Shown: positions 3,204 to 29,618 of the stretch, piece after piece
Numbering within the stretch: the first letter of the stretch is position 1
Layout of the letters: each line of letters starts with the position of its first letter
Source of the DNA: Salinivirgaceae bacterium
GTDB lineage: Bacteria > Bacteroidota > Bacteroidia > Bacteroidales > SZUA-534
Length of the DNA: 33,316 bases
Direction: 5' to 3'
Assembly (NCBI GenBank): GCA_027858735.1
Contig: JAQICC010000364.1
Coordinates: 1 to 33,316, forward strand
The notes under the pieces: generated by a model
What the model was told of the DNA's origin: nothing
Database searches by the model: none
What the model saw: only the letters and a program-made list of their open reading frames with translations
Translations under genes and position numbers: made by a program

Positions 3204-4127
3204 CTAAGAAATTTTTACTTTCTTTTTACTTAAGGCAATCAACAATACTCCAGAAATGACTATAACAGTACCTATAATTTGATATATGCCTATTTTTTCA
3301 CCTAAAAATATTGTAGCAAGTATAATTGTGCTGATGGGTCCTATACTACCTACAATAGCTACATTTGAAGCTCCTATTCTTTTAATTGCTTCGGCCAACA
3401 TAAAACTAGGTATTATGGTACTTATAAAAGCCATACCTAAACCTAAAAAATAAACCTCAGTTTGCTGATCGAGTACATTTCCATCGTTTTTAATAAAATA
3501 ATGAAGCATTACCGCAATACATGAAACAATCATAGCATAACTTGTAAAGCGCACTGATCCAATACGAGGAATCATATCGCCGCTACCCACCAAATAAACA
3601 GCGTAAGTTAAAGCACTACCAAATACCAAAACTGTTCCCAATGGAATATTTGAACTAATAGCCGCATATGCTGAATATTTGTAAAAGGCCACAAAAACAC
3701 CAATATAGGTAACGCCTACAGCAAGTTTTTGTTGTAGGCTAACCGGCTTTTTCAAAAATATTGCCGATATAATAATCACTAAGGTTGGATAAACAAATAA
3801 AATTAGTCGTTCAATACTTGCTGTAATATAGTTTAACCCTTTAAAATCAAGATAACTTGCCATATAATATCCTAAAAAACCAAGTATTGTTAAAAATAAA
3901 TAATCTTTAGGCATAAGTTTCATATTGGTTTTTCGCCTGCTTTCAAATAATGCAATTATTATATAAAAAGGAAGGGCAATACCCATTCTTATTAAAAGTA
4001 GCGATAAAGTGTCAATATCGTAGCCATACGCCATTTTTACCATAATAGCTTTGGCTGAAAACAATACGACTCCTACTGCCGCCAATCCAAAGGCTATTGT
4101 GCTGTAATGCTTGCTTTTAGGGTTCAT
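3204..4127 (-). CDS. EamA/DMT-family permease
   Basis: The 307-residue integral membrane protein has about ten hydrophobic segments arranged as two EamA repeats. Typical features are the second-repeat end (VAIVGSIGPISTIILATIFLGEKI, quoted in part as GPISTIILATIFLGEKI) and a short basic C-terminal tail (KKKVKIS). The drug/metabolite transporter superfamily exports or imports amino acids, nucleosides and other small metabolites; the substrate cannot be read from sequence. The ATG at 4127 has no in-frame alternative nearby. The gene is monocistronic in this window. About 33 bases upstream of its start is a strong minus-strand intrinsic terminator inside its own leader, so expression is probably controlled by premature termination. 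Confidence 0.88.
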   Translation of the reverse strand: MNPKSKHYSTIAFGLAAVGVVLFSAKAIMVKMAYGYDIDTLSLLLIRMGIALPFYIIIALFESRRKTNMKLMPKDYLFLTILGFLGYYMASYLDFKGLNYITASIERLILFVYPTLVIIISAIFLKKPVSLQQKLAVGVTYIGVFVAFYKYSAYAAISSNIPLGTVLVFGSALTYAVYLVGSGDMIPRIGSVRFTSYAMIVSCIAVMLHYFIKNDGNVLDQQTEVYFLGLGMAFISTIIPSFMLAEAIKRIGASNVAIVGSIGPISTIILATIFLGEKIGIYQIIGTVIVISGVLLIALSKKKVKIS

Positions 4128-4158: not shown

Positions 4159-4194
4159 AAAAAAAAACCTCCCTACACTTAAGTGAGGGAGGTT
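4159..4194 (-). terminator. Intrinsic terminator in the leader of the EamA gene (attenuator)
   Basis: On the minus strand AACCTCCCT (4194-4186) pairs perfectly with AGGGAGGTT (4174-4166), with a CACTT/AAGTG inner stem and one bulged base. A run of T from the A tract at 4159-4167 follows. This is a textbook rho-independent terminator, but it lies upstream of the EamA start (4127) in the same orientation, so it would stop transcription before the gene. An upstream minus-strand segment AGGCAGGTT (4247-4239) can pair with the same 5' arm at 8 of 9 positions, giving a mutually exclusive antiterminator. The alternative is the end of an independent short RNA. Confidence 0.75.
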
Positions 4195-4225
4195 CTTATT
4201 AACTAACAATAATATAATTAAATAT

Positions 4226-4300
4226 TTACGTAACGAATAACCTGCCTCTGAATTTTAATTCGAGCCAGCGCTTAATTGATATGTAAATATTAATATTCAT
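4226..4300 (-). other. Possible leader ORF and antiterminator segment
   Basis: A 24-codon open frame runs on the minus strand from ATG at 4300 to TAA at 4226, upstream of the leader terminator. Its last codons (AGA GGC AGG TTA) contain the candidate antiterminator AGGCAGGTT, so a translating ribosome would cover it and favour termination. The encoded peptide is basic with one Trp and shows no run of a single regulatory amino acid, so classical amino-acid attenuation is not obvious. It may instead be part of an unrecognised riboswitch or chance. No perfect TAnnTTTG box was found just upstream. Confidence 0.35.
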
Positions 4301-5022
4301 AATTTCATGTAAAAGTATGAATTAAAGCCATGCAATAACCCATTTAGCATAATGTGAAATAAATTCATTAATAAACTATTCTTAACAAAAGCCTTTAGAC
4401 CAGTAGAATTAGATATGAAAAGGATTGCATTACTTTGTAAATAATTTTTATGTTAAAAATAATTATTTAGTTTTACTTACGTCTTCGCAAGAAAATTCCA
4501 AATACTTTAACGAGGATTCGGCACAGGCTGTTATTCTTGTTTTGAAAACAGTCATCCCGCTATTTTAATCAACGATTTTATTAGGTATAATAATAGTACA
4601 AATATAATATTTTTGCCTAAATATGAATCAATTACCCAATTATGCCACGCAAGTTATTGTATTGCTAAATAGTCATATCAATCTGTTTACTGAATTCCTA
4701 AAAAAGACTTCATCCTTTAAAAAACAAAATTAACGACATCGCCCATAAATCATAAATCAATGTGGATGGAGGTATTTAATAGTGAAGTATCAAAAAGTAA
4801 TTGAATTGAATGGTTACTCAGCACCTCTCCATTAAATATCCCTACTATTTTGCTATTGGTAACGATTATAATAACCTTGATATGCTAACCTTTGCACAAC
4901 GAACGTTTTGTGGTAGCAAATGCCCCACCATACCTTAAAAGCAGGTTTAAAGTAAGCAAATCAAATAATCAGAGTGGGTTTACTCATGCCATTAACTCCC
5001 TGAATATTTAAACCATTTAGAC
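4301..5022. other. Gene-poor intergenic region
   Basis: There are about 720 bp without a convincing gene. The region contains the dispersed repeat copy at 4481-4560, a TATTTTTG box at 4608-4615, and right after it a 36-codon ORF (4623-4733, beginning MNQLPNYATQVIVLLN) that I do not recognise. That ORF could be a leaderless small protein or a decayed gene fragment. The remainder (4734-5022) is broken in all frames. A decayed mobile element is possible but no transposase motif is visible. Confidence 0.5.
4481..4560 (+). repeat. Dispersed repeat, copy A
   Basis: The stretch from GTCTTCGCAAGAAAATTCCA to CAGTCATCCCG matches, in reverse orientation, the sequence at 11966-11912. The first 20 bases match at about 17 positions and the last 30 at about 24. 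Copy A carries an extra block of about 22 bases between the two conserved parts. It lacks the TCCCGA/TCGGGA hairpin seen in copy B. Differences are mostly transitions, suggesting ageing copies of one family. Confidence 0.6.
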
Positions 5023-5074: not shown

Positions 5075-7294
5075 ATGAGTATTCCTGAAAAGTTTAAAGA
5101 TGAATTAAATTGCCTTTACACAAATTTAATGGATTTGTGTGCCAAAAGTTTTTCGCCTAACGATATTGAATCCATTCAAAAGGCCTACGATTTATCACTT
5201 GCCCATTCTGAAACAAAACTAAGAATATCGGGAGAACCCTATATACTGCATCATTTGCGAGTTGCAATTATACTTCAAGACTTAATTGGATTAGGCAAAA
5301 CTACTATTATTGCTGCCTTAGTGCACGATTTGGTTCAAGATAATCTCACATCACTTGAAACAATTAAAAAAGAATTTGGCGATGAAGTTAGCGGAATTGT
5401 TGAAGGTGTTATAAAAATAAGTTCGCTTTATACCAAAAAATTATCTTTACAGAGTGAAAATTTTATAACTCTAATCCTCACTATATCAGATGATGTACGC
5501 ATAATTCTAGTAAAAATTGCCGATCGGCTTGACAATATTCGTAAAATAAAGAATTTTGACGAGGAAAAGCAAAAAAAGATAGCCCAAGAAACCAGGCTAC
5601 TTTACGCTCCTATTGCCCACAGATTAGGACTTTACCATATAAAAACTGAATTTGAGGATATTTCGCTACGACATATTGACCCAGAACCCTATTTTAGCAT
5701 TGCCCAGCAATTAAAAACTACAAAAAAAGCTCGTGAAGCTTATATCGAGAAATTTTCACAGCCTATCCGTGAAATTCTTGAAGAAAAGGGCTATGACTAT
5801 GAATTTAAAGGGCGTCCGAAATCGGTAAATTCTATTTATGGAAAGGTTCAAAAAAAAGGAATTGACATTTCTGAGATTTTCGATTTATTTGCCATAAGAA
5901 TAATATTGAAAAACACACCTCTTGAAAAAGAGAAAGAAGAGTGTTGGAATGTTTACAGTTTGGTGACCAATATTTATAAACCCAATCCTTTAAGATTACG
6001 CGACTGGATTTCAACACCCAGACCAAGTGGGTACGAATCGCTACATACGACTGTTATTGGCCCTGATGACCATTGGGTTGAAATACAAATACGTACCAAT
6101 CGCATGGACGAAGTGGCTGAAAAAGGCGATGCTGCGCATTGGAAGTATAAAGAATCGGCAAATGAAAAGGATCATGACTCTTGGCTAAGAAATATTCGTG
6201 ATGCGCTTGAAGTAAAAGATACTGAAGCTATAGATGATTTTAAAAATACAGCTAAACAAAAAATAAATTCCGATATTTTTGTTTTCACCCCCAAGGGTGA
6301 TATCAAAAAATTACGTGATGGAGCTACAATTCTTGATTTTGCCTACTCTATTCACAGTAAAGTTGGAAATACCTGCACCGGAGCTCGTGTAAATGAAAAA
6401 ATTGTTCCCATAAAGTACAAATTGAAAAATGGCGACACGGTTGAAGTTATAACATCGAAAAATCAAAAGCCACGCGATGAATGGATAAATATTGTAGCCA
6501 GTTCAAGAACAAAGGCTCGTATTAAAAAAGCTATTAACGAAACTTTGTTTAAGCAAGCTGAAATTGGCAAAGAAATGTTGGAGCGTAAAATGTCGCAGCT
6601 TAAATTGGAAATGGGTGACCAATTTATTCTGAAATTATTGGGCCACTTTAAGTATAAACGGGCTTTGGATTTTTACCAGGCCATTGCCGATGAAAAAATT
6701 GATTTACAATCGATTAAAGGAGTTTTAGCCAAATCGAAAAGTGAAGATGATAGTAAAGATGAGGCAATTACGGAGGCTAGCGCTGCCGAATACACAAAGC
6801 GCAGGAATGATGAAAGCGATTTCTTAGTCATCGATAAAGATCTGAAAAATGTTGATTATAAATTGGCAAAATGCTGCAAACCTATTCCTGGTGATAATAT
6901 TTTTGGCTTTGTTACGGTTGATCGAGGAATTCAAATACATCGATATAACTGCCCTAATGCCAAAGACTTAAGAACGCGATACTCGTATAGAATTGTTCCG
7001 GCAATGTGGACTGATCGATCAAAAGATTCAGCCTTTTTAGTTGAATTGGTTGTAACCGGATTAGACAAGATCGGTATTATGAATCATATTAGTGAAGTAA
7101 TATCCAAAAACCATCAGGTGAATATGCGTTCAATTGCAATAAATACAAAAGATGGTATTTTTCAAGGCTTTATTACGGTTTTTATAAATAGTTTAAATCA
7201 CCTTGATTTGCTGCTAACAAATATTAACAATATTAAAGGGGTACTAAAGGCCGAACGATTGAATAAAAACACAATAGTTACGGAATCTTCATAA
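5075..7294 (+). CDS. RelA/SpoT-family long (p)ppGpp synthetase/hydrolase homologue
   Basis: The 739-residue protein has the full long-RSH order: HD hydrolase domain (about 30-190), synthetase (about 230-360), TGS (about 400-460), a CC/zinc-finger region (KLAKCCKPIPGD) and a C-terminal ACT domain. Synthetase residues are present (GRPKSVNSIYGK at 246-257, D270, E336 in EIQIRT). The charge motif is RLRD (307-310), closer to the RXKD of Rel/SpoT than the EXDD of RelA. In the HD domain H59, H84-D85 and D150 are kept, but the usual ED pair reads QD (Q88-D89), which may weaken hydrolysis. It should make the stringent-response alarmone from GTP/GDP and ATP in the cytosol. It overlaps queE by 17 bp, tail to tail. 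The family is certain; the balance of the two activities is inferred. Confidence 0.95.
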   Translation: MSIPEKFKDELNCLYTNLMDLCAKSFSPNDIESIQKAYDLSLAHSETKLRISGEPYILHHLRVAIILQDLIGLGKTTIIAALVHDLVQDNLTSLETIKKEFGDEVSGIVEGVIKISSLYTKKLSLQSENFITLILTISDDVRIILVKIADRLDNIRKIKNFDEEKQKKIAQETRLLYAPIAHRLGLYHIKTEFEDISLRHIDPEPYFSIAQQLKTTKKAREAYIEKFSQPIREILEEKGYDYEFKGRPKSVNSIYGKVQKKGIDISEIFDLFAIRIILKNTPLEKEKEECWNVYSLVTNIYKPNPLRLRDWISTPRPSGYESLHTTVIGPDDHWVEIQIRTNRMDEVAEKGDAAHWKYKESANEKDHDSWLRNIRDALEVKDTEAIDDFKNTAKQKINSDIFVFTPKGDIKKLRDGATILDFAYSIHSKVGNTCTGARVNEKIVPIKYKLKNGDTVEVITSKNQKPRDEWINIVASSRTKARIKKAINETLFKQAEIGKEMLERKMSQLKLEMGDQFILKLLGHFKYKRALDFYQAIADEKIDLQSIKGVLAKSKSEDDSKDEAITEASAAEYTKRRNDESDFLVIDKDLKNVDYKLAKCCKPIPGDNIFGFVTVDRGIQIHRYNCPNAKDLRTRYSYRIVPAMWTDRSKDSAFLVELVVTGLDKIGIMNHISEVISKNHQVNMRSIAINTKDGIFQGFITVFINSLNHLDLLLTNINNIKGVLKAERLNKNTIVTESS

Positions 7295-7913
7295 ATTTAT
7301 GCGCTTGTAGTGAAACCATCCATTGTGGGTTATTCTTTACATAATCAACAATGGTATCAATATTTGCAGCATACCTACTCCACTCAGGTTGTAAAAACAG
7401 CATACACTTTTCTGAAACACGTTCGGCACATTGTTCACCCCAAGCTATATCTTCTGCATCATCGTATATAATTACCTTAAGCTCATCGGCACGTTTATAC
7501 ATACTTTCATCAGGATGTACATTACGCTTAGGCGATAAACAAATCCAATCCCATGTACCTGTTAAAGGGTAAGCTCCCGATGTTTCAATAAAAGTTTCAA
7601 TATTATGTTCTTTTAATTTATCGCATAACGGATTAAGGTTATGTAACGAGGGTTCCCCACCCGTAACTACCACCGATCTGGCAGGAGTATTCAATACACT
7701 TTGTAATATTTCATCAACTGAAACCAGTTTATGAATACCAGGACTCCATGATATTTTAGAGTCGCACCAACGACATCCAATGTCGCACCCACCTATTCGG
7801 ATAAAATAAGCAGCTTTGCCCGTATGAAAACCTTCCCCCTGTAGGGTATAGAATTGTTCAACTAAAGGCAATACATTTCCTTCCCCACCTCCTGGTAATT
7901 TGTCCTTTTCCAA
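7278..7913 (-). CDS. queE: 7-carboxy-7-deazaguanine synthase
   Basis: The 211-residue radical SAM enzyme has the CX3CX2C cluster motif (GGCDIGCRWCD) right after the QueE-type N-terminus FYTLQGEGFHTGKAAYFIRIGG. Also visible are VVTGGEPSLH, ETSGAY and CLSPKRN. It converts 6-carboxytetrahydropterin to 7-carboxy-7-deazaguanine in the queuosine (7-deazaguanine) pathway. No other que gene is in the window. No in-frame ATG precedes the conserved region: a TAG stop sits directly before the TTG at 7913, so initiation is at TTG 7913 or at another TTG at 7871. It lies 17 bp behind the HNH gene on the same strand and probably shares its transcript. Its stop overlaps the 3' end of rel. Confidence 0.93.
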   Translation of the reverse strand: MEKDKLPGGGEGNVLPLVEQFYTLQGEGFHTGKAAYFIRIGGCDIGCRWCDSKISWSPGIHKLVSVDEILQSVLNTPARSVVVTGGEPSLHNLNPLCDKLKEHNIETFIETSGAYPLTGTWDWICLSPKRNVHPDESMYKRADELKVIIYDDAEDIAWGEQCAERVSEKCMLFLQPEWSRYAANIDTIVDYVKNNPQWMVSLQAHKFMKIP

Positions 7914-7930: not shown

Positions 7931-8524
7931 TTAATCTTCGTCGTCTATTTTAACGTGTCCCCAGTTTTCACCCTTACGAATTCGATTAAGCTGTGTATGG
8001 GTAATACCAAATTCACGCGCAATTTTATACAACGGGTTATTGCTACGTCGCAACTTTTTCTTTAATCGAATAACATCGGTTTCAGTTAGCTTAGCATGCG
8101 TTATATTGCCTATTCTATTTGCGCGTGCATGTATAACTTTCGGATTTTCATTGTTATGCATGTTCAATTCATGCTGAGTTACCCATTTAAGATTTTCAAA
8201 ATTGTTATTCTTTTTGTTGAAATCTTTATGAATAACATATTTGTGTCTTTCTGATGGGCGCTCACAATAAATTGTTGCAACCAAACGATGTACAGATTCT
8301 GTTACCCTTTTGGTAGTGCCTTTAACTCTTTTAAAGTTATTAACATACTCAAAACCAGATCCATCTTTAAACTGATTAATTGTAGAAAGAAATTGCCATT
8401 CTTCCTTTTTCTTATTGTTGTGTTTAACGCGACCATAAGTAGATACTTCATATACCTCATCTTCACGCATTCCAGGAAGAGTAAAGCGTTTCCACTCCTC
8501 ATTCCAATATTTTTCTTCTTTCAT
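7931..8524 (-). CDS. NUMOD4/HNH endonuclease-like protein with C-terminal helix-turn-helix
   Basis: The 197-residue protein opens with a NUMOD4-like segment (EEWKRFTLPGMREDEVYEVSTYGRVKH in the N-terminal 40 residues). An HNH_3-type nuclease follows (VHRLVATIY then IHKDFNKKNNNFENLKWVT, about residues 80-135). It ends with a DNA-binding helix-turn-helix (IAREFGITHTQLNRIRKG). These domains are known from homing endonucleases, but no intron, intein or interrupted host gene surrounds it, and free-standing copies occur in Bacteroidota. The HNH His and Asn are present, so it may be catalytically active. It has its own well-formed promoter (8563-8593) and is followed 17 bp later by queE. Target and biological role are unknown. 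Confidence 0.82.
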   Translation of the reverse strand: MKEEKYWNEEWKRFTLPGMREDEVYEVSTYGRVKHNNKKKEEWQFLSTINQFKDGSGFEYVNNFKRVKGTTKRVTESVHRLVATIYCERPSERHKYVIHKDFNKKNNNFENLKWVTQHELNMHNNENPKVIHARANRIGNITHAKLTETDVIRLKKKLRRSNNPLYKIAREFGITHTQLNRIRKGENWGHVKIDDED

Positions 8525-22542: not shown

Positions 22543-23394
22543 ATGATAGAATTTAAAATGATAATAGATAAGCTAGTTCTTTATTTACCAAAAATAGGAC
22601 TGGGCTTAAGTGTTTTACTGGTTTTCATATTTATGTCATGGGTAGTAAGAAAAATTATTACCAAACGCATTAAGCCTAAAACAAAAAACCCTTTATTGGC
22701 CGATTTTTTAGGTAAAATTGCAGCCTTTATAATTACCATTACGGGCTTTGTATTTTTTCTGAATATAATAGGGCTAGGACGAATAGCAACTCATATAATG
22801 GCCGGAGCAGGAATAACTACCTTTGTAATTGGCTTTGCATTTAAAGATATTGGAGAAAATTTTCTTTCCGGAATTTTAATGGCATTTAAAAGTCCTTTTC
22901 GAGTTGGCGATTTAATTGAAACAGGGGGTACTATGGGTTATGTAAGTGAACTAAATTTAAGAGAAAGCATACTTAAAACCCTCGATGGTAAAGACGTGTA
23001 CATACCAAATTCACAAATTATAAAATCACCACTTTTTAATTATACTATTGATGGATTTTTACGCTACGAAATATTAATAGGTATTGATTATAATGTAGAT
23101 ATTAAAAATACAATTGAAATTATTCAAAAGGTATTATTAAATTTTTCAGAGGTATTACAAGGAGATAAAAAACCGATTGTTGTGGCTGAAAATTTTGCAG
23201 CAAGTTCTGTTTCATTGAAAGCTTTTTACTGGATTGATACCTTTAAATCCAAATCAAAAGCTTATCATCTTAATCTAAAATCGAATATTATGATTCAAAT
23301 ACTTGAGCAATTAAATAAGAATAATATTTATTTGCCATCTGAAATAGTAGAATTAAAAAATTATAATAATCAATCGCTCAAAACGAATAATTAA
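22543..23394 (+). CDS. MscS-family mechanosensitive channel 1
   Basis: The 283-residue protein has three N-terminal membrane helices. The pore-lining helix (IMAGAGITTFVIGFAFKDIG) runs into the MscS beta domain (FRVGDLIETGGTMGYVSELN, GKDVYIPNSQI) and then an alpha/beta C-terminal domain. MscS channels release solutes when membrane tension rises. ATG 22543 or ATG 22558 could each be the start. It is the first of three MscS paralogues within 7 kb and is no closer by eye to the second than to the third. It probably belongs to the preceding operon. Confidence 0.9.
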   Translation: MIEFKMIIDKLVLYLPKIGLGLSVLLVFIFMSWVVRKIITKRIKPKTKNPLLADFLGKIAAFIITITGFVFFLNIIGLGRIATHIMAGAGITTFVIGFAFKDIGENFLSGILMAFKSPFRVGDLIETGGTMGYVSELNLRESILKTLDGKDVYIPNSQIIKSPLFNYTIDGFLRYEILIGIDYNVDIKNTIEIIQKVLLNFSEVLQGDKKPIVVAENFAASSVSLKAFYWIDTFKSKSKAYHLNLKSNIMIQILEQLNKNNIYLPSEIVELKNYNNQSLKTNN

Positions 23395-23434
23395 AAATAA
23401 AAACAAAAAAAAATTAATTTTTATTTAAACACTT

Positions 23435-24373
23435 ATGAAAAACTTAATTAATAACGAATTAATGGCTGATCAGCTAAGTAAATTTCAGCAATAGGTTATT
23501 GTTGAACTACCCATTGTATTTTTACTCATTTTGCTACTATTAATTACTTTACGTTTAGTACATTTTGTTATTAAACAATTAAAGAAAACATTACTAAAGC
23601 ATGCTGATAAAAATGACAAAGTAGACACTAACGAAGCTGAAAAGAGAATTAACACCTTAATGGGTATTTTTGGAAGTGTGGTTAAAATAATGCTGTTTGC
23701 AACCTTTATCATGATGATACTTCAAAAGTTCGGGGTAAATATAGCTCCAATTATAGCCAGTGCCGGTATTATTGGTTTGGCTGTGGGCTTTGGTGCACAA
23801 GAATTGGTCAGAGATGTTATTTCTGGTTTTTTTTTAATACTTGATAATCAGGTTAGAATTGGTGATGCTGCAATAATTAATGGAACCAATAGTACGGTAA
23901 AAAAAATAGAATTGAGAACATTAACATTACGTGATTTTTCAGGAGTAGTACATGTTTTTCAAAATGGTAAAATAGATACTTTATCAAACAGGTCAAAGGA
24001 ATGGTTGGCAGCAGTATTTAGTATTGGGGTTGCTTATAAGGAAGACGTGCAGCAAGTAATGAACATCATGAAAACAACAGGAGAACAGTTAGCGCTTGAT
24101 CCGGATTTTAAAGATAAAATAATTGAACCTATTGAAATAATGAGCTTGGATCAATTTGCCGATAGTGCACTCATTATTAAAGCTAGAATTAAAACAAAAC
24201 CTTCGGTGCAATGGGCAATTGAAAGACAATATAATAAGTGTTTAAAAGATGAGTTTGATAGAAAAAATATTGAAATTCCATTTCCACATACTACAATATA
24301 TTGGGGCGAGAAAATTACGCCCTTGCATTTAAATATAAATACCGATTCACCAGCTGAAACAAAAAAAATATAA
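23435..24373 (+). pseudogene. MscS-family mechanosensitive channel 2, interrupted by in-frame TAG
   Basis: From ATG 23435 the frame reads MKNLINNELMADQLSKFQQ, then TAG at 23492-23494, and continues in the same frame as VIVELPIVFLLILLLLITLR and the rest of an MscS protein to 24373. The stop is one base from CAG (Gln), so a single transition would explain it. Downstream the pore helix (ASAGIIGLAVGFGAQELV) and beta domain (VRIGDAAIINGTNSTVKKIE) are intact, and no further frame damage is seen. A shortened product could start at TTG 23531, but this would lose the start of the first membrane helix. Either a recent pseudogene, a sequencing error, or read-through/re-initiation. It ends 2 bp before corA. 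Confidence 0.8.
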
Positions 24374-24375
24374 CT

Positions 24376-25437
24376 ATGGCAAGGTTTTTAAAAAGTAGGA
24401 TAAAAGCAAAAGGGGCTGCCCCTGGTAGCCTAATATTTATGGGTAAGCAAAAAATGGATAACATAGGCATTCGCTTATTCAAATACAATGAACATGAAAC
24501 TTCCGAAAAGGAATTCAAATCGATCGATAAAGCTCTTAAAGCTATTGACACAACTCAAATCAATTGGTTGAATATTGATGGAATACATGAAATTGAGGTA
24601 ATTCAAAAAATAGGATCGCATTTCAATATTTCAAATTTAGCACTTGAAAATATTTTAAACACCGGTCAACGATCAAAATTTTTTGAAGACAAAGAATCGA
24701 TCACATTACTCACTAAAGCAATCTATTACAATAGTGAAGAAAACAAAATAACCGTAGAACAAATATCTTTTGTACTATTAAATAATGTGGTTATAAGCTT
24801 CCAAGAAAAAAAAGGCGATCATTTTGAACCCGTGCGTAAACGTATTCGTGACAACATTGGTAGAATTCACAAATCAAAATCCGATTATTTGGTTTATGCG
24901 CTAATCGATAGCCTGGTTGATAATTATTTAATAAACCTGGAGCAAATGGGCGAAAAAATTGAAACGCTTGAAGCTAAACTTGATAACCCTACGAAGGAAA
25001 TAAGTGGCATATTATTCCAATACAAAACCGAAATTTCGTATTTCAGAAAAACCATTAAACCTTTAAAAGAACTCCTTATTCGATTATTAAGATCAAAAAA
25101 TGATTTAATAGAAGATACCAATATGGCATACTATCACGAGCTTTACGACCTTAATGAACAAGCGATTGATGCTGTTGAAAATTATTTCACAATGACCAAT
25201 GACCTCATAAATTTATACAACACCAATATTAGCAATAAAGCAAATGAAGTAATGAAAGTACTTACCATTTTTGCTTCCATATTCATTCCATTAACCTTTA
25301 TTGCAGGTATTTACGGTACCAATTTTGAATATGTTCCTGAATTGCATTATAAATATTCCTATTTTATTATGTGGGGAGTTTTGATTTCAGTTGCCGGAAT
25401 AATGCTCTATTTTTTTAGAAAAAATAAATGGTTTTAA
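24376..25437 (+). CDS. corA: CorA-family divalent cation transporter with GTN in place of GMN
   Basis: The 353-residue protein has the Bacteroidota CorA start (GAAPGSLIFMGKQKMDN), a long cytosolic alpha/beta and stalk region, and two C-terminal membrane helices with a short loop. The pore signature YGMNF reads YGTNF (G314-T315-N316, bases 25315-25323); the loop PELHYKYSYF and basic tail RKNKWF are normal. CorA pentamers move Mg2+ (also Co2+/Ni2+) into the cell through the GMN selectivity ring. The substitution needs at least two base changes (ATG to ACC) and may alter selectivity or function. It overlaps the next gene in TAATG and sits 2 bp after mscS2. Confidence 0.9.
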   Translation: MARFLKSRIKAKGAAPGSLIFMGKQKMDNIGIRLFKYNEHETSEKEFKSIDKALKAIDTTQINWLNIDGIHEIEVIQKIGSHFNISNLALENILNTGQRSKFFEDKESITLLTKAIYYNSEENKITVEQISFVLLNNVVISFQEKKGDHFEPVRKRIRDNIGRIHKSKSDYLVYALIDSLVDNYLINLEQMGEKIETLEAKLDNPTKEISGILFQYKTEISYFRKTIKPLKELLIRLLRSKNDLIEDTNMAYYHELYDLNEQAIDAVENYFTMTNDLINLYNTNISNKANEVMKVLTIFASIFIPLTFIAGIYGTNFEYVPELHYKYSYFIMWGVLISVAGIMLYFFRKNKWF

Positions 25438-26447
25438 TGATGAACGATGCGCTTATTTGGATAGGTATATTTTTTTGCTTAACGCAATCGGCAATGTTTT
25501 CAGGGTTAAATCTGGCTTTTTTTAGTTTTACACGATTACGACTTGAAATTGAAGCTGAAAGTGCACACTCAAAAGGTGCCACAAAAGTTCTTAACATGCG
25601 GGATGATTCAAATTTTTTGCTTACCACCATTTTATGGGGAAATGTTGGCATTAACGTTTTACTAACCTTGCTTTCCGATTCCGTTATGGCAGGTATCGTT
25701 TCTTTTATGTTTTCAACGGTTCTAATCACCCTTTTTGGCGAAATTGTACCTCAAGCCTACTTTTCTCGCAATTCATTAAAAATGGCCTCGCTACTATCAC
25801 CCGTTTTGCGTATTTATCAATTTGTTTTATATCCGGTTGCTAAGCCTAGTGCCCTATTGCTTGATGCGTGGCTCGGAAAAGAGTCGGTAGAGTTTTTTAA
25901 AGAGAAAAACATAAAGCTTTTTTTAAAAAAACATATTGAAGGTTCTGATAATGAAATTGATCATATTGAAGGTACAGGAGCAATAAACTTTTTATCACTC
26001 GATGATATTTTAGTTGCTGATGAGGGCGAAAATATAAATAAACATAGCATTATTGCTCTTAATGAAGTAGATGGGGAATTAGTTTTTCCAAATTATAACA
26101 GCACCACAGATGATATTTTTATACAAAAAATAAATAAATCGAATGAGAAATGGATAATTTTTACAAACCAAACCGGAATTCCTAAAGCTGTGCTTGATGC
26201 TGATGGATTTATTCGATCAACATTGTTTTGTAAGGGGTGTGAAAGCATTCAAAATTTTTGCCATACTCCTCTCGTCATCTACGATAACAATGTTAATCTT
26301 GGAATGGTTTTAAAAGATTTACATCATAAAATTGATAAGCATAATGACCTTCCCATTGAAAAGGATATTGTATTATTATGGAGTTTAGAAAATAAAAAAA
26401 TAATTACAGGAGCCGATATTTTCGGTCGATTACTAAAAGGAATTTAG
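25437..26447 (+). CDS. DUF21/CNNM-type (CorB-like) membrane protein
   Basis: The start ATG overlaps the corA stop (TAATG); an in-frame ATG at 25428 inside corA is less likely. The roughly 336-residue product has a DUF21 membrane domain of about 140 residues with MFSGLNLAFFSFTRLRLE, TTILWGNVGINVLLTLLSD and the hallmark GEIVPQAYFSR. The cytosolic C-terminal half corresponds in position to a CBS pair but is divergent. CNNM/CorB proteins are linked to Mg2+ homeostasis, usually as exporters. Direct coupling to a CorA homologue suggests paired Mg2+ import and export or regulation. A short CXXC (FCKGCES) lies near residue 275, of unknown use. Confidence 0.85.
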   Translation: MMNDALIWIGIFFCLTQSAMFSGLNLAFFSFTRLRLEIEAESAHSKGATKVLNMRDDSNFLLTTILWGNVGINVLLTLLSDSVMAGIVSFMFSTVLITLFGEIVPQAYFSRNSLKMASLLSPVLRIYQFVLYPVAKPSALLLDAWLGKESVEFFKEKNIKLFLKKHIEGSDNEIDHIEGTGAINFLSLDDILVADEGENINKHSIIALNEVDGELVFPNYNSTTDDIFIQKINKSNEKWIIFTNQTGIPKAVLDADGFIRSTLFCKGCESIQNFCHTPLVIYDNNVNLGMVLKDLHHKIDKHNDLPIEKDIVLLWSLENKKIITGADIFGRLLKGI

Positions 26448-26475
26448 TTTGTATTAACATTTAATAATTAAAGAA

Positions 26476-27039
26476 ATGAAAAAACTTTTAATTTGTACAA
26501 TAATTTTTTTGGCTGCCTTTAGTGGCTATAGTCAAAATGTTGTTGCTCAACGTCAACCAGCAAGTGAAAAAGCTATTCCAAGTTTGGTTATAACAAACTT
26601 TAGAATTCAGTATCCTGATGCTCTCGTTAGGCAATGGTTTGCTACGCACCTAACATACTGGCAAAATGATTATAGTTCAAACTATAATAATGACTGGTAT
26701 AACCAAAGAACGGTAGTTGTATATACTTATGAAAGACCTAACTATTTTGAAGTTGAATTTATTAACAATCCGGGTGAACTTAGTAGGGCAATATACAATA
26801 TTCATGGTTATTGGTATGAAACTAGAACCCAACTAAAAGGTTTACCAATGCAAGTATTAGAGGCCTTAAAGAAAACAAAATATAACGAATGGAAAATTTC
26901 ACCTCTAAAGGAAAAAATTGAAACCGATGCCTGGCCAGAAGATATTTATCGCTTTCATGTATCGAAAGGATTAAAGTCTAGAATTATCCGAATGGATCCG
27001 AAGGGCAATATAATTCAAGAAAGATTCATAAACGATTAA
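26476..27039 (+). CDS. Secreted PepSY-like protein
   Basis: The 187-residue protein begins with a Sec signal peptide (MKKLLICTIIFLAAFSGYSQ). It then has two loosely repeated units of the PepSY-like (PF11396-type) fold common in Bacteroidota: FRIQYPDALVRQWF...YFEVEF...IYNIHGYWYETRTQLKGLP, then EALKKTKYNEWKI...RFHVSKG...MDPKGNIIQERF. It is expected in the periplasm; the function of such proteins is not established. It lies 28 bp after the CNNM-like gene and may end that operon. It is rich in Tyr, Trp and Asn in the middle, unlike its neighbours. Confidence 0.7.
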   Translation: MKKLLICTIIFLAAFSGYSQNVVAQRQPASEKAIPSLVITNFRIQYPDALVRQWFATHLTYWQNDYSSNYNNDWYNQRTVVVYTYERPNYFEVEFINNPGELSRAIYNIHGYWYETRTQLKGLPMQVLEALKKTKYNEWKISPLKEKIETDAWPEDIYRFHVSKGLKSRIIRMDPKGNIIQERFIND

Positions 27040-27132
27040 AATAATTTTAGACAAATTACATTTATTGCAATGAATACCTTGTAAATTAGCATAAATTATA
27101 AAATGTAATAAAAATGATTTGATATGGAAAAA

Positions 27133-27146
27133 TCAGAGTACTCTGA
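27133..27146. promoter_or_regulatory. 14-bp palindrome upstream of the haem-binding gene
   Basis: TCAGAGTACTCTGA is a perfect palindrome 44 bases before the start at 27190, in an otherwise AT-rich 150-bp spacer. It could be an operator for a dimeric regulator. No recognised binding motif. Confidence 0.35.
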
Positions 27147-27189
27147 GTATTTCTAAATTGATTGTTTAATAACAAATAAATAGCTGTAA

Positions 27190-27654
27190 ATGAAAAAGAT
27201 ATACATTGTAGTATTTGTGTTTTTGTTTATATTACTAGTGCTTATCCAGTTTATTGGTGTAAAACCAGATTTGCGCCAAACAAATAATATAAATGCTATT
27301 TTTACCCTTAACAACACACCCGATGAAATAGGTTTATTGCTGAAACAATCATGTTTTGACTGTCATTCGAACGAAACAAATTTTCCGTGGTATTCAAAAA
27401 TAGCGCCAATTTCATGGCTTATCAATGCGCATATTGAAGAAGGTCGATCACATATTAATTTTTCAAATTGGGAGCAATATACTACCGAAAAGCAACATGC
27501 ATTGATTAATAAATGCAAAGAAGAAGTTAAGGAAAACAAAATGCCACTAAAATCCTATACTTTAATTCACCGTAATTCAAAACTTACTTCAGAAGAAAAA
27601 ATTGAATTAATCAGCTGGTTTGAATACTATTCGAACAATGAAATAAAAAAATAA
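27190..27654 (+). CDS. Membrane-anchored haem-binding domain protein
   Basis: The 154-residue protein has an uncleaved-looking N-terminal membrane helix (about 4-24) followed by a periplasmic domain. This carries a single cytochrome c haem motif, CFDCH (C55, C58, H59), in the context QSCFDCHSNETNFPWYSKIAPISWL, which defines the Haem_bd family (PF14376). It should carry one covalently bound haem c. Its redox partner is unknown; the next gene, a CDF transporter, starts 7 bp downstream, so the two are probably co-transcribed. Confidence 0.88.
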   Translation: MKKIYIVVFVFLFILLVLIQFIGVKPDLRQTNNINAIFTLNNTPDEIGLLLKQSCFDCHSNETNFPWYSKIAPISWLINAHIEEGRSHINFSNWEQYTTEKQHALINKCKEEVKENKMPLKSYTLIHRNSKLTSEEKIELISWFEYYSNNEIKK

Positions 27655-27661
27655 TGTAGCG

Positions 27662-28660
27662 ATGAAAAATAATAATTCTGAAATAAAAATTGTTGTTCAA
27701 AGAAGAATAGTAATTATTTCAGTTATTCTTTTCTTTGGCAAATTAATCGCCTATTTTTTAACCAATTCAGTTGGTATTTTAACCGATGCTTTAGAAAGTA
27801 CAGTGAATGTTTTAACCGGTTTTATTAGTTTATACAGCATAAGTATTTCATTAAAACCCCGAGATAAAAACCATCCGTTTGGCCATGGCAAAATTGAGTC
27901 TATATCAGCTTCTATTGAGGGTTTTTTAATTTTACTTGCAGGGTTAATTATAATTTTCGAAGCGGTTAAGAGACTATTTAGGCCGGTAGAAATTCAACAA
28001 TTGGATATTGGAATTATTATTATCGGCATAGCCGGATTAATGAATTACATTTTAGGCTATTACAGTAAAAAAGTAGGTAAAAAACACAATTCAATAGCCT
28101 TAGTTGCCGGAGGAAAGCATTTACAATCCGATACTTATTCGACCATAGGTTTAGTTATAGGTTTAATTCTACTTTTGATAACTAAAATCGCCTGGTTAGA
28201 CAGCGTTATAGCCATACTTTTTGGATCTATCATTATTTATACGGGATACAAAATACTTAAAGAAACTACATCAAACTTAATGGATGAGGCCGATACGAAA
28301 ATATTGAACGAAATTGCTCATATATTACAAAGCAATAAATTAAAGAATTGGATTAATATACATAATTTAAAATTAGTTAAGTATGGTGATTCATATCATA
28401 TTGATTGTGATTTAACCCTTCCTTTTTATATGAATATTGCTGATGCCCATAAAGAGAGCGAAATACTAATGAAAACTATATCGGAAAACCAGCATAATAA
28501 AATTGATTTTACGATACATACCGATGCATGTCACAAAGGTTTATGTAGCCATTGCAAAATTACAAATTGCATGCATCGTGAAAATCCATTTGAAAATGAA
28601 TTAATCTGGTCACTTGAAGAACTTACACAAACCATTCATTTTGAATACAAAACAAATTAA
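27662..28660 (+). CDS. Cation diffusion facilitator family transporter with Cys-rich tail
   Basis: The 332-residue protein has six membrane helices and a cytosolic C-terminal domain. Landmarks are TDALESTVNVLTGF in helix 2, HPFGHGKIESISASIEG, and GGKHLQSDTYSTIG in helix 5 (H153, D157). At the transport site, helix 2 offers E45 and N49 where classic Zn exporters have D/H and D, a variation found in a CDF subfamily. The end carries CHKGLCSHCKITNCMH (C290, C295, C298, C303), a likely extra metal site. It should export a divalent metal (Zn, Fe, Mn or Co) using the proton gradient; the metal is not predictable. It is paired with the haem-binding gene. Confidence 0.9.
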   Translation: MKNNNSEIKIVVQRRIVIISVILFFGKLIAYFLTNSVGILTDALESTVNVLTGFISLYSISISLKPRDKNHPFGHGKIESISASIEGFLILLAGLIIIFEAVKRLFRPVEIQQLDIGIIIIGIAGLMNYILGYYSKKVGKKHNSIALVAGGKHLQSDTYSTIGLVIGLILLLITKIAWLDSVIAILFGSIIIYTGYKILKETTSNLMDEADTKILNEIAHILQSNKLKNWINIHNLKLVKYGDSYHIDCDLTLPFYMNIADAHKESEILMKTISENQHNKIDFTIHTDACHKGLCSHCKITNCMHRENPFENELIWSLEELTQTIHFEYKTN

Positions 28661-28766
28661 CCTATTAAATTTATCGTGAAATACCTAAATTAATTTCCTT
28701 TAAAATAAACCTATAACCGTATAAATTGTAATTATATATTACATATACATTAATCAACTTAAAAGC

Positions 28767-29618
28767 ATGCTTCTTTCTCTCTATTTAAATATCATTTCAA
28801 ATCAATTTCAATTAATTGGCAAACGAATACTTATTATTATTGCAATTGCTATAGGTGCTCATTTGCTTGTAATACTTGTAAAAAAAGCAAGCAAGCTATT
28901 TCATTTTAAAACTTCTGGTAAATCTTCATCAAAAATTTTATCGGTAAGCAGCTTGTTAACAAGCGTTTTGGTGTTTATTATTTATTTTTTGGCCATTGGC
29001 TACGCACTAAAAGAATTGGGAATATCACTTACCGCTTATGTTGCTAGTGCTTCGGTTATTGGTCTTGCAGTTGGTTTTGGTTCACAAGGTATTGTTCAAG
29101 ATATGGTTACAGGTTTTACCTTAATTGTATCAAACCAAATTGACATTGGCGATATGGTTGAAATCAATGGGCAAACAGGAATTGTAAATTCAATTAGTAT
29201 GCGATTTGTTGTATTTGAGAATGCTAATGGTGCAAATGTTTATATTCCCAATAGAAATATAAATGTGGTAATTAATTACCCAAAAAAACATATAAACTGC
29301 CATGTTGATATCATTTTGCCAAATGAAGATGATTTAAAAATACAAGTAAAAGAAAAAGCAAAGAAAATGATAAAAGTAGTGCACGAAAAATATCCTAATA
29401 TTTTAATGCAACCAAAATCGAATAGTAAAATATTGAAAACCAATTTAGATAATGAAGTACTTCGCTTGATATTTCATATATGGCCAGGCAGAGGCACTCC
29501 AATTGAAAGTGCTTTTAAGCAAGAATTATTACAAGCCATTAAAGTAATTGTTCCAACCTATGCCGATTGGATGATTTCAGTAAATTATGAAGTTGAAATG
29601 AATGAAAATACAAACTAA
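28767..29618 (+). CDS. MscS-family mechanosensitive channel 3
   Basis: The 283-residue protein has three membrane helices. The pore helix (YVASASVIGLAVGFGSQGIV) is followed by the beta domain (IDIGDMVEINGQTGIVNSIS, GANVYIPNRNI) and a C-terminal alpha/beta domain. It lies 106 bp after the CDF gene and may have its own promoter, though only a partial box is visible. Compared with MscS 1 and 2 it keeps the GLAVGFG pore sequence of MscS 2 and the IPN motif of MscS 1. Confidence 0.9.
   Translation: MLLSLYLNIISNQFQLIGKRILIIIAIAIGAHLLVILVKKASKLFHFKTSGKSSSKILSVSSLLTSVLVFIIYFLAIGYALKELGISLTAYVASASVIGLAVGFGSQGIVQDMVTGFTLIVSNQIDIGDMVEINGQTGIVNSISMRFVVFENANGANVYIPNRNINVVINYPKKHINCHVDIILPNEDDLKIQVKEKAKKMIKVVHEKYPNILMQPKSNSKILKTNLDNEVLRLIFHIWPGRGTPIESAFKQELLQAIKVIVPTYADWMISVNYEVEMNENTN

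Follow-up and report, generated by a model that had tools for sequence, protein, structure and literature searches.

A candidate translation-dependent attenuator with a single tryptophan codon before an EamA transporter gene in Bacteroidota

What decides whether transcription continues past the terminator that precedes an EamA-family transporter gene of a Salinivirgaceae bacterium? The first-pass annotation of the 33,316-nt stretch of DNA that was analysed (the window) had proposed an attenuator or a riboswitch of no recognized class in this leader. A direct reading of the minus strand found its terminator, T run and 24-codon leader ORF (uORF) where it had placed them, together with an upstream segment, AGGCAGGTT at 4247-4239, that pairs with the terminator arm AACCTCCCT at 8 of 9 positions. 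The elements of the locus are listed below.

Elements of the window leader

3204..4127, minus strand: EamA-family (DMT) transporter gene, 307 aa, the putatively controlled gene; apparently monocistronic
4127-4125, minus strand: transporter ATG, 31 nt past the T run (direct reading of the strand)
4159..4194, minus strand: intrinsic terminator with arms AACCTCCCT (4194-4186) and AGGGAGGTT (4174-4166) and T run 4167-4159
4221..4229, minus strand: 3' arm of P1, GTAAATATT, over the uORF stop codon (MFE folds)
4226..4300, minus strand: uORF of 24 codons, peptide MNINIYISIKRWLELKFRGRLFVT, TAA stop (direct reading)
4239..4248, minus strand: antiterminator strand (region 2), GAGGCAGGTT, in uORF codons 18-21
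4239..4272, minus strand: leader hairpin 1:2, which contains the Trp codon and keeps the antiterminator paired (MFE folds)
4265..4267, minus strand: single Trp codon, codon 12, the proposed control or stall codon, 19 nt before the antiterminator
4283..4291, minus strand: 5' arm of P1, AATATTTAC, in uORF codons 4-6 (MFE folds)
4310..4317, minus strand: putative promoter -7-like box, TACTTTTA, with 5 of the 6 fixed letters of TAnnTTTG; it starts 17 nt before the uORF

Pfam assigns the transporter to the EamA family (PF00892, E = 3.8e-37, above the cut-off), and its matches to the TIGR00950 and YddG models fall below their cut-offs. Identity as a YddG aromatic amino acid exporter was rejected, as NF050091 scores 44.7 bits against an NCBIfam equivalog cut-off of 300. 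The sole match in a sequence search of the PDB is LicB (E = 1.2e-4).

The 153-nt leader has a minimum free energy of -38.5 kcal/mol, compared with -23.0 +/- 3.6 kcal/mol for shuffled sequences (z = -4.26; 0 of 200 as low). In the predicted fold, the P1 helix (4291-4283 with 4229-4221) joins the start of the uORF to its own stop region. The antiterminator can form 9 pairs with the 5' arm of the terminator (-13.1 kcal/mol), and this duplex exceeds those of shuffles in two tests (P = 0.020 or 0.004), while P rises to 0.24 when the entire stretch is refolded in a stricter test. Since the window alone yields values from 0.004 to 0.24 depending on the test, we regard its antiterminator as secure because it is conserved in relatives. 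A simple terminator scan missed the window terminator, probably on account of its interrupted stem, and a later scan found it.

Several other features of the window were recorded. Positions 4468-4559, upstream of the leader, belong to a dispersed repeat of which stretches of 30-89 nt with 81-100% identity occur on five other contigs of the same genome, on two of them less than 400 nt from the contig end. A free-standing HNH endonuclease-like ORF (PF13392) at 7931-8524 is situated between queE-like and tatA-like genes, the latter two named by reading the ORF list. An ion-transport cluster at 22543-29618 comprises three MscS-type channels, CorA, CNNM and a cation efflux protein.

Distribution of the leader and pairing among relatives

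The transporter is sparsely distributed. It occurs in 1 of 20 genomes of the window's family (its own), in 4 of 247, 6 of 393 and 6 of 397 genomes of the order (overlapping draws that include its own genome), and in 30 of 396 genomes of the class at E = 1e-60. In the families around these matches it is found in 3 of 23, 1 of 1, 2 of 5, 4 of 18 and 4 of 71 genomes, and a scan of genome contigs gave 15 loci. There are 57 distinct EamA loci with the window included, of which 56 could be judged because one (L021) has too little upstream DNA.

A leader with the window's layout precedes the gene at 14 of these 56 loci (the window, L009-L013, L056-L058, L066, L088, L089, L092 and L093). It is absent at 42 loci, many of them in Flavobacteriaceae, where absence means that the 350 nt ahead of the aligned start contain no terminator or that no antiterminator is significant (L090 was judged by eye), a criterion blind to attenuators of other design. 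Terminators do stand before six of these EamA relatives (L020, L022, L036, L038, L043 and L044), and their antiterminators are not significant (P = 0.35-0.80). On a tree of the 56 proteins, the presence of the leader requires 2 changes compared with a mean of 12.6 for shuffled labels, and we conclude from these sequences that the leader is mostly inherited together with the transporter. At one locus (L010, 156-1400) the uORF begins about 4 nt past the leuB stop and no -7 box occurs in the preceding 50 nt; this leader may therefore be an attenuator inside a leu operon.

All 14 leaders contain a uORF, 23-37 codons long, within which the antiterminator has its first nucleotide at nt 49-65, in codons 17-22. 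The first-pass annotation had put the antiterminator in the last uORF codons, which agrees with codons 18-21 of 24 in the window. The uORF stop is 17-37 nt before the terminator, with the shortest spacer (17 nt) in L010. Of the 14 leaders, 13 have a uORF of at least 23 codons whose end precedes the terminator by 20-38 nt, an arrangement that arises in 2.5-11.5% of shuffles. In L011, the uORF was counted from an upstream ATG; from an inner ATG, its Trp codon would be codon 8. Seven of the 14 leaders have an exact TAnnTTTG in the 50 nt that precede the uORF (shuffle mean 0.85; 0 of 300 as many), which starts 12-16 nt before the uORF in six of the seven, and the window box is a one-letter variant. 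This motif is the Bacteroidota -7 box consensus according to the available part of PMC7366714, and it makes these boxes candidate promoter elements.

The mutually exclusive structures predicted for the window recur in the 13 further leaders, which are of divergent sequence, with terminator arms as different as AACCTCCCT, GAAGCCTTCC and AGCCTCCCCG. When each antiterminator is paired with its own terminator arm, the energies sum to -181.0 kcal/mol, compared with -149.2 +/- 7.8 kcal/mol for swapped arms (P < 1/20000; 0 of 20000 permutations). The difference persists if one member of each of three close pairs is dropped (11 leaders, P = 0.00045). The own arm ranks first among the 14 in 5 leaders only, and in L010, L012, L013 and L088 it does not surpass the average of the other arms. 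At the level of sequence, the exclusive pairings are thus preserved, and antiterminators co-vary with terminator arms when the leaders are taken together, although not in each one. A lack of conservation or covariation of either stem in close relatives, which the first-pass annotation had named among the outcomes that would speak against it, is not what these leaders display.

Tests against shuffled sequences in the first 10 leaders are in accord with the antiterminator duplex (Fisher P = 6e-11). Under the stricter refolding test the combined value is 1e-6, and five of the 10 leaders exceed 0.05, the window (0.24) among them. The duplex is weak in L012 (P = 0.12) and L066 (P = 0.10), and L010 fails (P = 0.85). 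Folds containing P1 reach a modest Fisher P of 3e-4 in the same 10 leaders. In nine individual folds, P1-like helices connect the beginning of the uORF with its late portion or the region of its stop. Within the closest trio (L013, L088 and L089), P1 and the 1:2 hairpin each have one pair changed on both sides, and a few pairs are broken.

The tryptophan codon and codon-run attenuators of the same genomes

Most of the uORFs share a tryptophan codon at a nearly fixed position. UGG occurs 18 times in the uORF frame of the 14 leaders, compared with 3 and 2 times in the other frames (binomial P = 1.3e-5). Six leaders have Trp at codon 12, four at codon 13 and two at codon 14, which places it at codons 12-14 in 12 of 14 (400 shuffle runs have a mean of 0.98 and never exceed 4). 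Only L009 (codon 18) and L057 (codon 5) deviate, and both belong to a set of three leaders from a single genus. From the Trp codon to the antiterminator there are 15-28 nt in 12 of 14 leaders, the values for L010, L012, L066 and L092 among them having been derived from long gapped duplexes. Ungapped pairing picks other sites in the window, L010, L012, L089 and L092, and the EamA distances were consequently taken from gapped duplexes.

Eleven leaders have one Trp codon and three have 2-3 separated ones; none of the 14 carries its cognate control codon in a run or in a high proportion. The Trp surplus irrespective of position is mild (18 codons compared with 8.3 expected, P = 0.0075), and Thr and Arg codons are likewise in surplus (P = 0.005 each), Met slightly so. 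Control by Cys, His or branched-chain codons was rejected because Cys, His and Val codons have no surplus across the 14 leaders and those of Ile (P = 0.04) and Leu (P = 0.03) are only slightly enriched. This lack of a branched-chain signal holds despite the location of the L010 leader after leuB and of valS after the L012 gene. Nine of the 14 leaders have His at exactly codon 7 (shuffle mean 0.57, maximum 3). The codon is CAT in all nine on reading, and several folds place it within or next to the P1 arm, for which reasons the conserved His7 may be a feature of the RNA rather than of the peptide. The leaders are related, and the counts of Trp and His positions are not independent draws. A WQLxL motif follows the Trp site, also on reading, in L012, L013, L089 and L092.

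Attenuators of amino acid operons in these genomes allow the spacing to be calibrated. IGPS is present in all 10 leader-bearing genomes tested (of 14), on which ground Trp auxotrophy was rejected as a reason for an importer. The sequence upstream of trpE is readable in nine of the 10 (the tenth contig is too short), and each of these nine trpE genes is preceded by an attenuator-like leader in which Trp codons are clustered (WWW or WWWW in eight, WHW in L083). In the window's own genome, this leader (L084, G000:C101) encodes MIRNYKNIWWWRNDL and has an attenuator-type terminator. The trp operons L078 and L082, from one family, carry an extra 253-aa gene between trpG and trpD. A scan of 2.33 Mb from one related genome (G055) gave 10 candidate leaders with a uORF and a terminator. 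Five precede trpE (WWW), hisG (L187, HHHHH), pheA (L146, FYFYFFF), leuA (L164, LLL) and cysK (L134, CCCCC), where trpE and pheA were named from their best-matching models at scores below the equivalog cut-offs. Of the others, four are chance-like and one (L204, upstream of 7029-7541) has the uORF MMSLKHTNPNRYQHLTVGSFDWITRTGCIMYF, with a single Trp and no codon run, and a terminator before a 171-aa TPR-type protein.

In 10 of 13 codon-run leaders, 16-23 nt separate the last control codon from the antiterminator (7 of 9 trpE leaders; cys 19, phe 19 and leu 17). Outlying distances of 6 and 31 nt in two trpE leaders and of 39 nt in the his leader all belong to weaker pairings, and the 19 nt of the trpE leader L080 rests on 5 pairs. 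These trpE antiterminators were located by ungapped pairing, which replaced a noisy gapped-duplex estimate. The position of the single in-frame Trp codon in the EamA leader therefore corresponds roughly to that of the last control codon in a codon-run attenuator, as judged by sequence, and this spacing is the main argument for a ribosome pause there.

The trpE leaders of the same genomes resemble the EamA leader in their short uORF, in the distance of mostly 16-23 nt that separates their last Trp codon from the antiterminator, and in a mutually exclusive terminator. They differ in having 2-4 clustered Trp codons, mostly at codons 5-13, whereas the EamA leader has one at codons 12-14 as a rule. 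The trpE antiterminator also pairs mostly with the loop and 3' arm of the terminator, and that of the EamA leader with the 5' arm. The hisG, pheA, leuA and cysK leaders of G055 similarly place a uORF and then a terminator before the gene, but they contain runs or clusters of cognate codons that the EamA leader lacks.

Proposed mechanism, alternatives and implications

The leader is probably a ribosome-mediated, translation-dependent transcription attenuator in which a stall at one Trp codon switches the transporter on. The -7 boxes suggest that transcription starts just upstream of the uORF. Full translation of the uORF would bring a ribosome over the antiterminator in its last codons, so that the terminator forms and the transporter stays off. 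If the uORF is not translated, the predicted folds suggest that P1 and the 1:2 hairpin would hide the antiterminator and again leave the terminator to form. A ribosome stalled at Trp codon 12-14 would block P1 and the 1:2 hairpin and stop just short of the antiterminator, which could then pair with the 5' arm of the terminator and allow polymerase to enter the EamA gene. The logic would be that of the classic 1:2, 2:3 and 3:4 regions, with the on state at the Trp12-14 pause. Given the lack of a codon run, the signal may be either Trp limitation or a nascent-peptide stall that depends on a drug or metabolite. Shortage of charged tRNA-Trp is the simplest candidate, and the transporter may in that case be part of the Trp or aromatic economy of the cell.

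Several observations fit this Trp-codon attenuator poorly. One Trp codon is the rule (3 of 14 leaders have more), compared with the clusters in the trpE leaders, and one model of attenuation favours a large share of control codons according to the available text of PMC1183508. The leaders L009 and L057 do not conform to the proposed mechanism, and the retained IGPS genes give no sign of an auxotrophy that would explain an importer. The duplexes of L010, L012 and L066 are weak, the own arm comes first in only 5 of 14 leaders, the conserved His codon 7 is left unexplained, and Thr and Arg share in the surplus. EamA proteins are often exporters, a role that fits a starvation signal poorly.

A rather unlikely alternative is a ligand- or drug-dependent stall, in which His7 and Trp12-14 act jointly with the ribosome tunnel as a sensor of a small molecule (an antibiotic that targets the ribosome, free Trp or some other metabolite) and the stalled ribosome switches an exporter on. 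The leader would then, with the same low probability, encode a sensor peptide of a new kind whose stall at a single Trp induces a dedicated DMT exporter and to which tRNA-Trp charging is irrelevant. The single, positionally fixed Trp without a run, unlike the trpE, hisG, pheA, leuA and cysK leaders, speaks for such a stall, as do the position of His7, the shared WQLxL motif and the membership of the protein in the DMT family. The peptide is otherwise poorly conserved over the 14 leaders, however, and the invariant CAT of His7 may reflect the RNA constraint noted above. The macrolide arrest motif is +X(W), which on reading is present in only 4 of 14 leaders. Precedents for a leader peptide with attenuation before a transporter or resistance gene are the BmrB leader of bmrCD (BmrC/BmrD) and the MsrD leader, as the available parts of their sources describe them; both systems are from Firmicutes, and the likeness noted is one of layout. 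The TnaC leader of Escherichia coli has 24 residues and an essential Trp12, stalls at the stop codon after Pro24 and acts via Rho. Here Trp12 occurs in six leaders, four of which also have 24 codons (the window, L013, L088 and L089), and the TnaC leader is likewise tied to Trp-related transport and breakdown in the available text of PMC8429421 and PMC3902921. Membership in the TnaC class was rejected, with Trp12 in 6 of 14 leaders, Pro at position 24 in none of 14, and a variable distance from Trp to stop; a ribosome that stalled at the stop codon, as on TnaC, would mask the antiterminator of these leaders and thereby promote the off state.

It is less likely again that the uORF is a general sensor of slow translation, in which any early delay frees the antiterminator and Trp merely sets the slow point. 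The antiterminator position at nt 49-65 in all 14 leaders, including the two with Trp elsewhere (L009 and L057), is as this account would predict, but Trp at codons 12-14 in 12 of 14 is not accounted for. The first-pass alternative of attenuator or riboswitch is narrowed by the recurrent uORF, the in-frame Trp and a spacing like that of codon-run attenuators, all of which favour the attenuator; a riboswitch is unlikely. A metabolite aptamer closed by P1, with an incidental uORF, would have its P1-like helix, antiterminator and terminator all in place, yet it is highly improbable. UGG is biased towards the uORF frame, and neither inspection by eye nor alignments within groups of leaders revealed a conserved nucleotide core beyond the helices and codons. 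Rfam at gathering thresholds has no match anywhere in the window or in the leaders of the 13 other loci, in agreement with the first-pass statement that no known class is recognizable, and its one match at those loci is a tRNA outside the leader. At a low threshold, the window leader has sub-threshold matches alone, mostly over the terminator and rejected as such, of which the best is IS102 RNA (E = 0.018, 26.5 bits against a gathering score of 46). We expect that a covariance model of these leaders would chiefly recognize terminators. Equally improbable is an ordinary terminator of an upstream transcript with a chance antiterminator pairing. Terminators are common and the window alone is equivocal (P = 0.004-0.24), but on the transporter strand no ORF of at least 80 aa lies between 4128 and 7277, the spoT/relA homologue is divergently oriented, the layout is retained in 13 relatives, and own arms outperform swapped ones.

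Possible precedents have been described in the phylum. The available text of PMC9723704 describes strong clues for leader-peptide attenuation before amino acid operons of Flavobacterium psychrophilum, and that of PMC7366714 reports sORFs in long 5' UTRs of B. thetaiotaomicron. In the accessible main text of an attenuator survey (PMC2965389) the terms 'Bacteroid' and 'EamA' are absent. No attenuator before an EamA gene in Bacteroidota is among the matches listed in our search, which covered mainly open-access literature, and an earlier description is possible.

The first-pass annotation had suggested that the leader, if conserved, could reveal the ligand of the transporter. A Trp-codon attenuator suggests a possible signal, tryptophan, and does not extend to proof of a substrate. 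The leader nevertheless offers direct access to the signal, and perhaps also to the substrate, of a branch of the large EamA/DMT family that is uncharacterised. If the proposed mechanism is true, Bacteroidota use leader-peptide attenuation outside amino acid biosynthesis, and the same genomes would provide a natural comparison between codon-run attenuators and a single-codon one.
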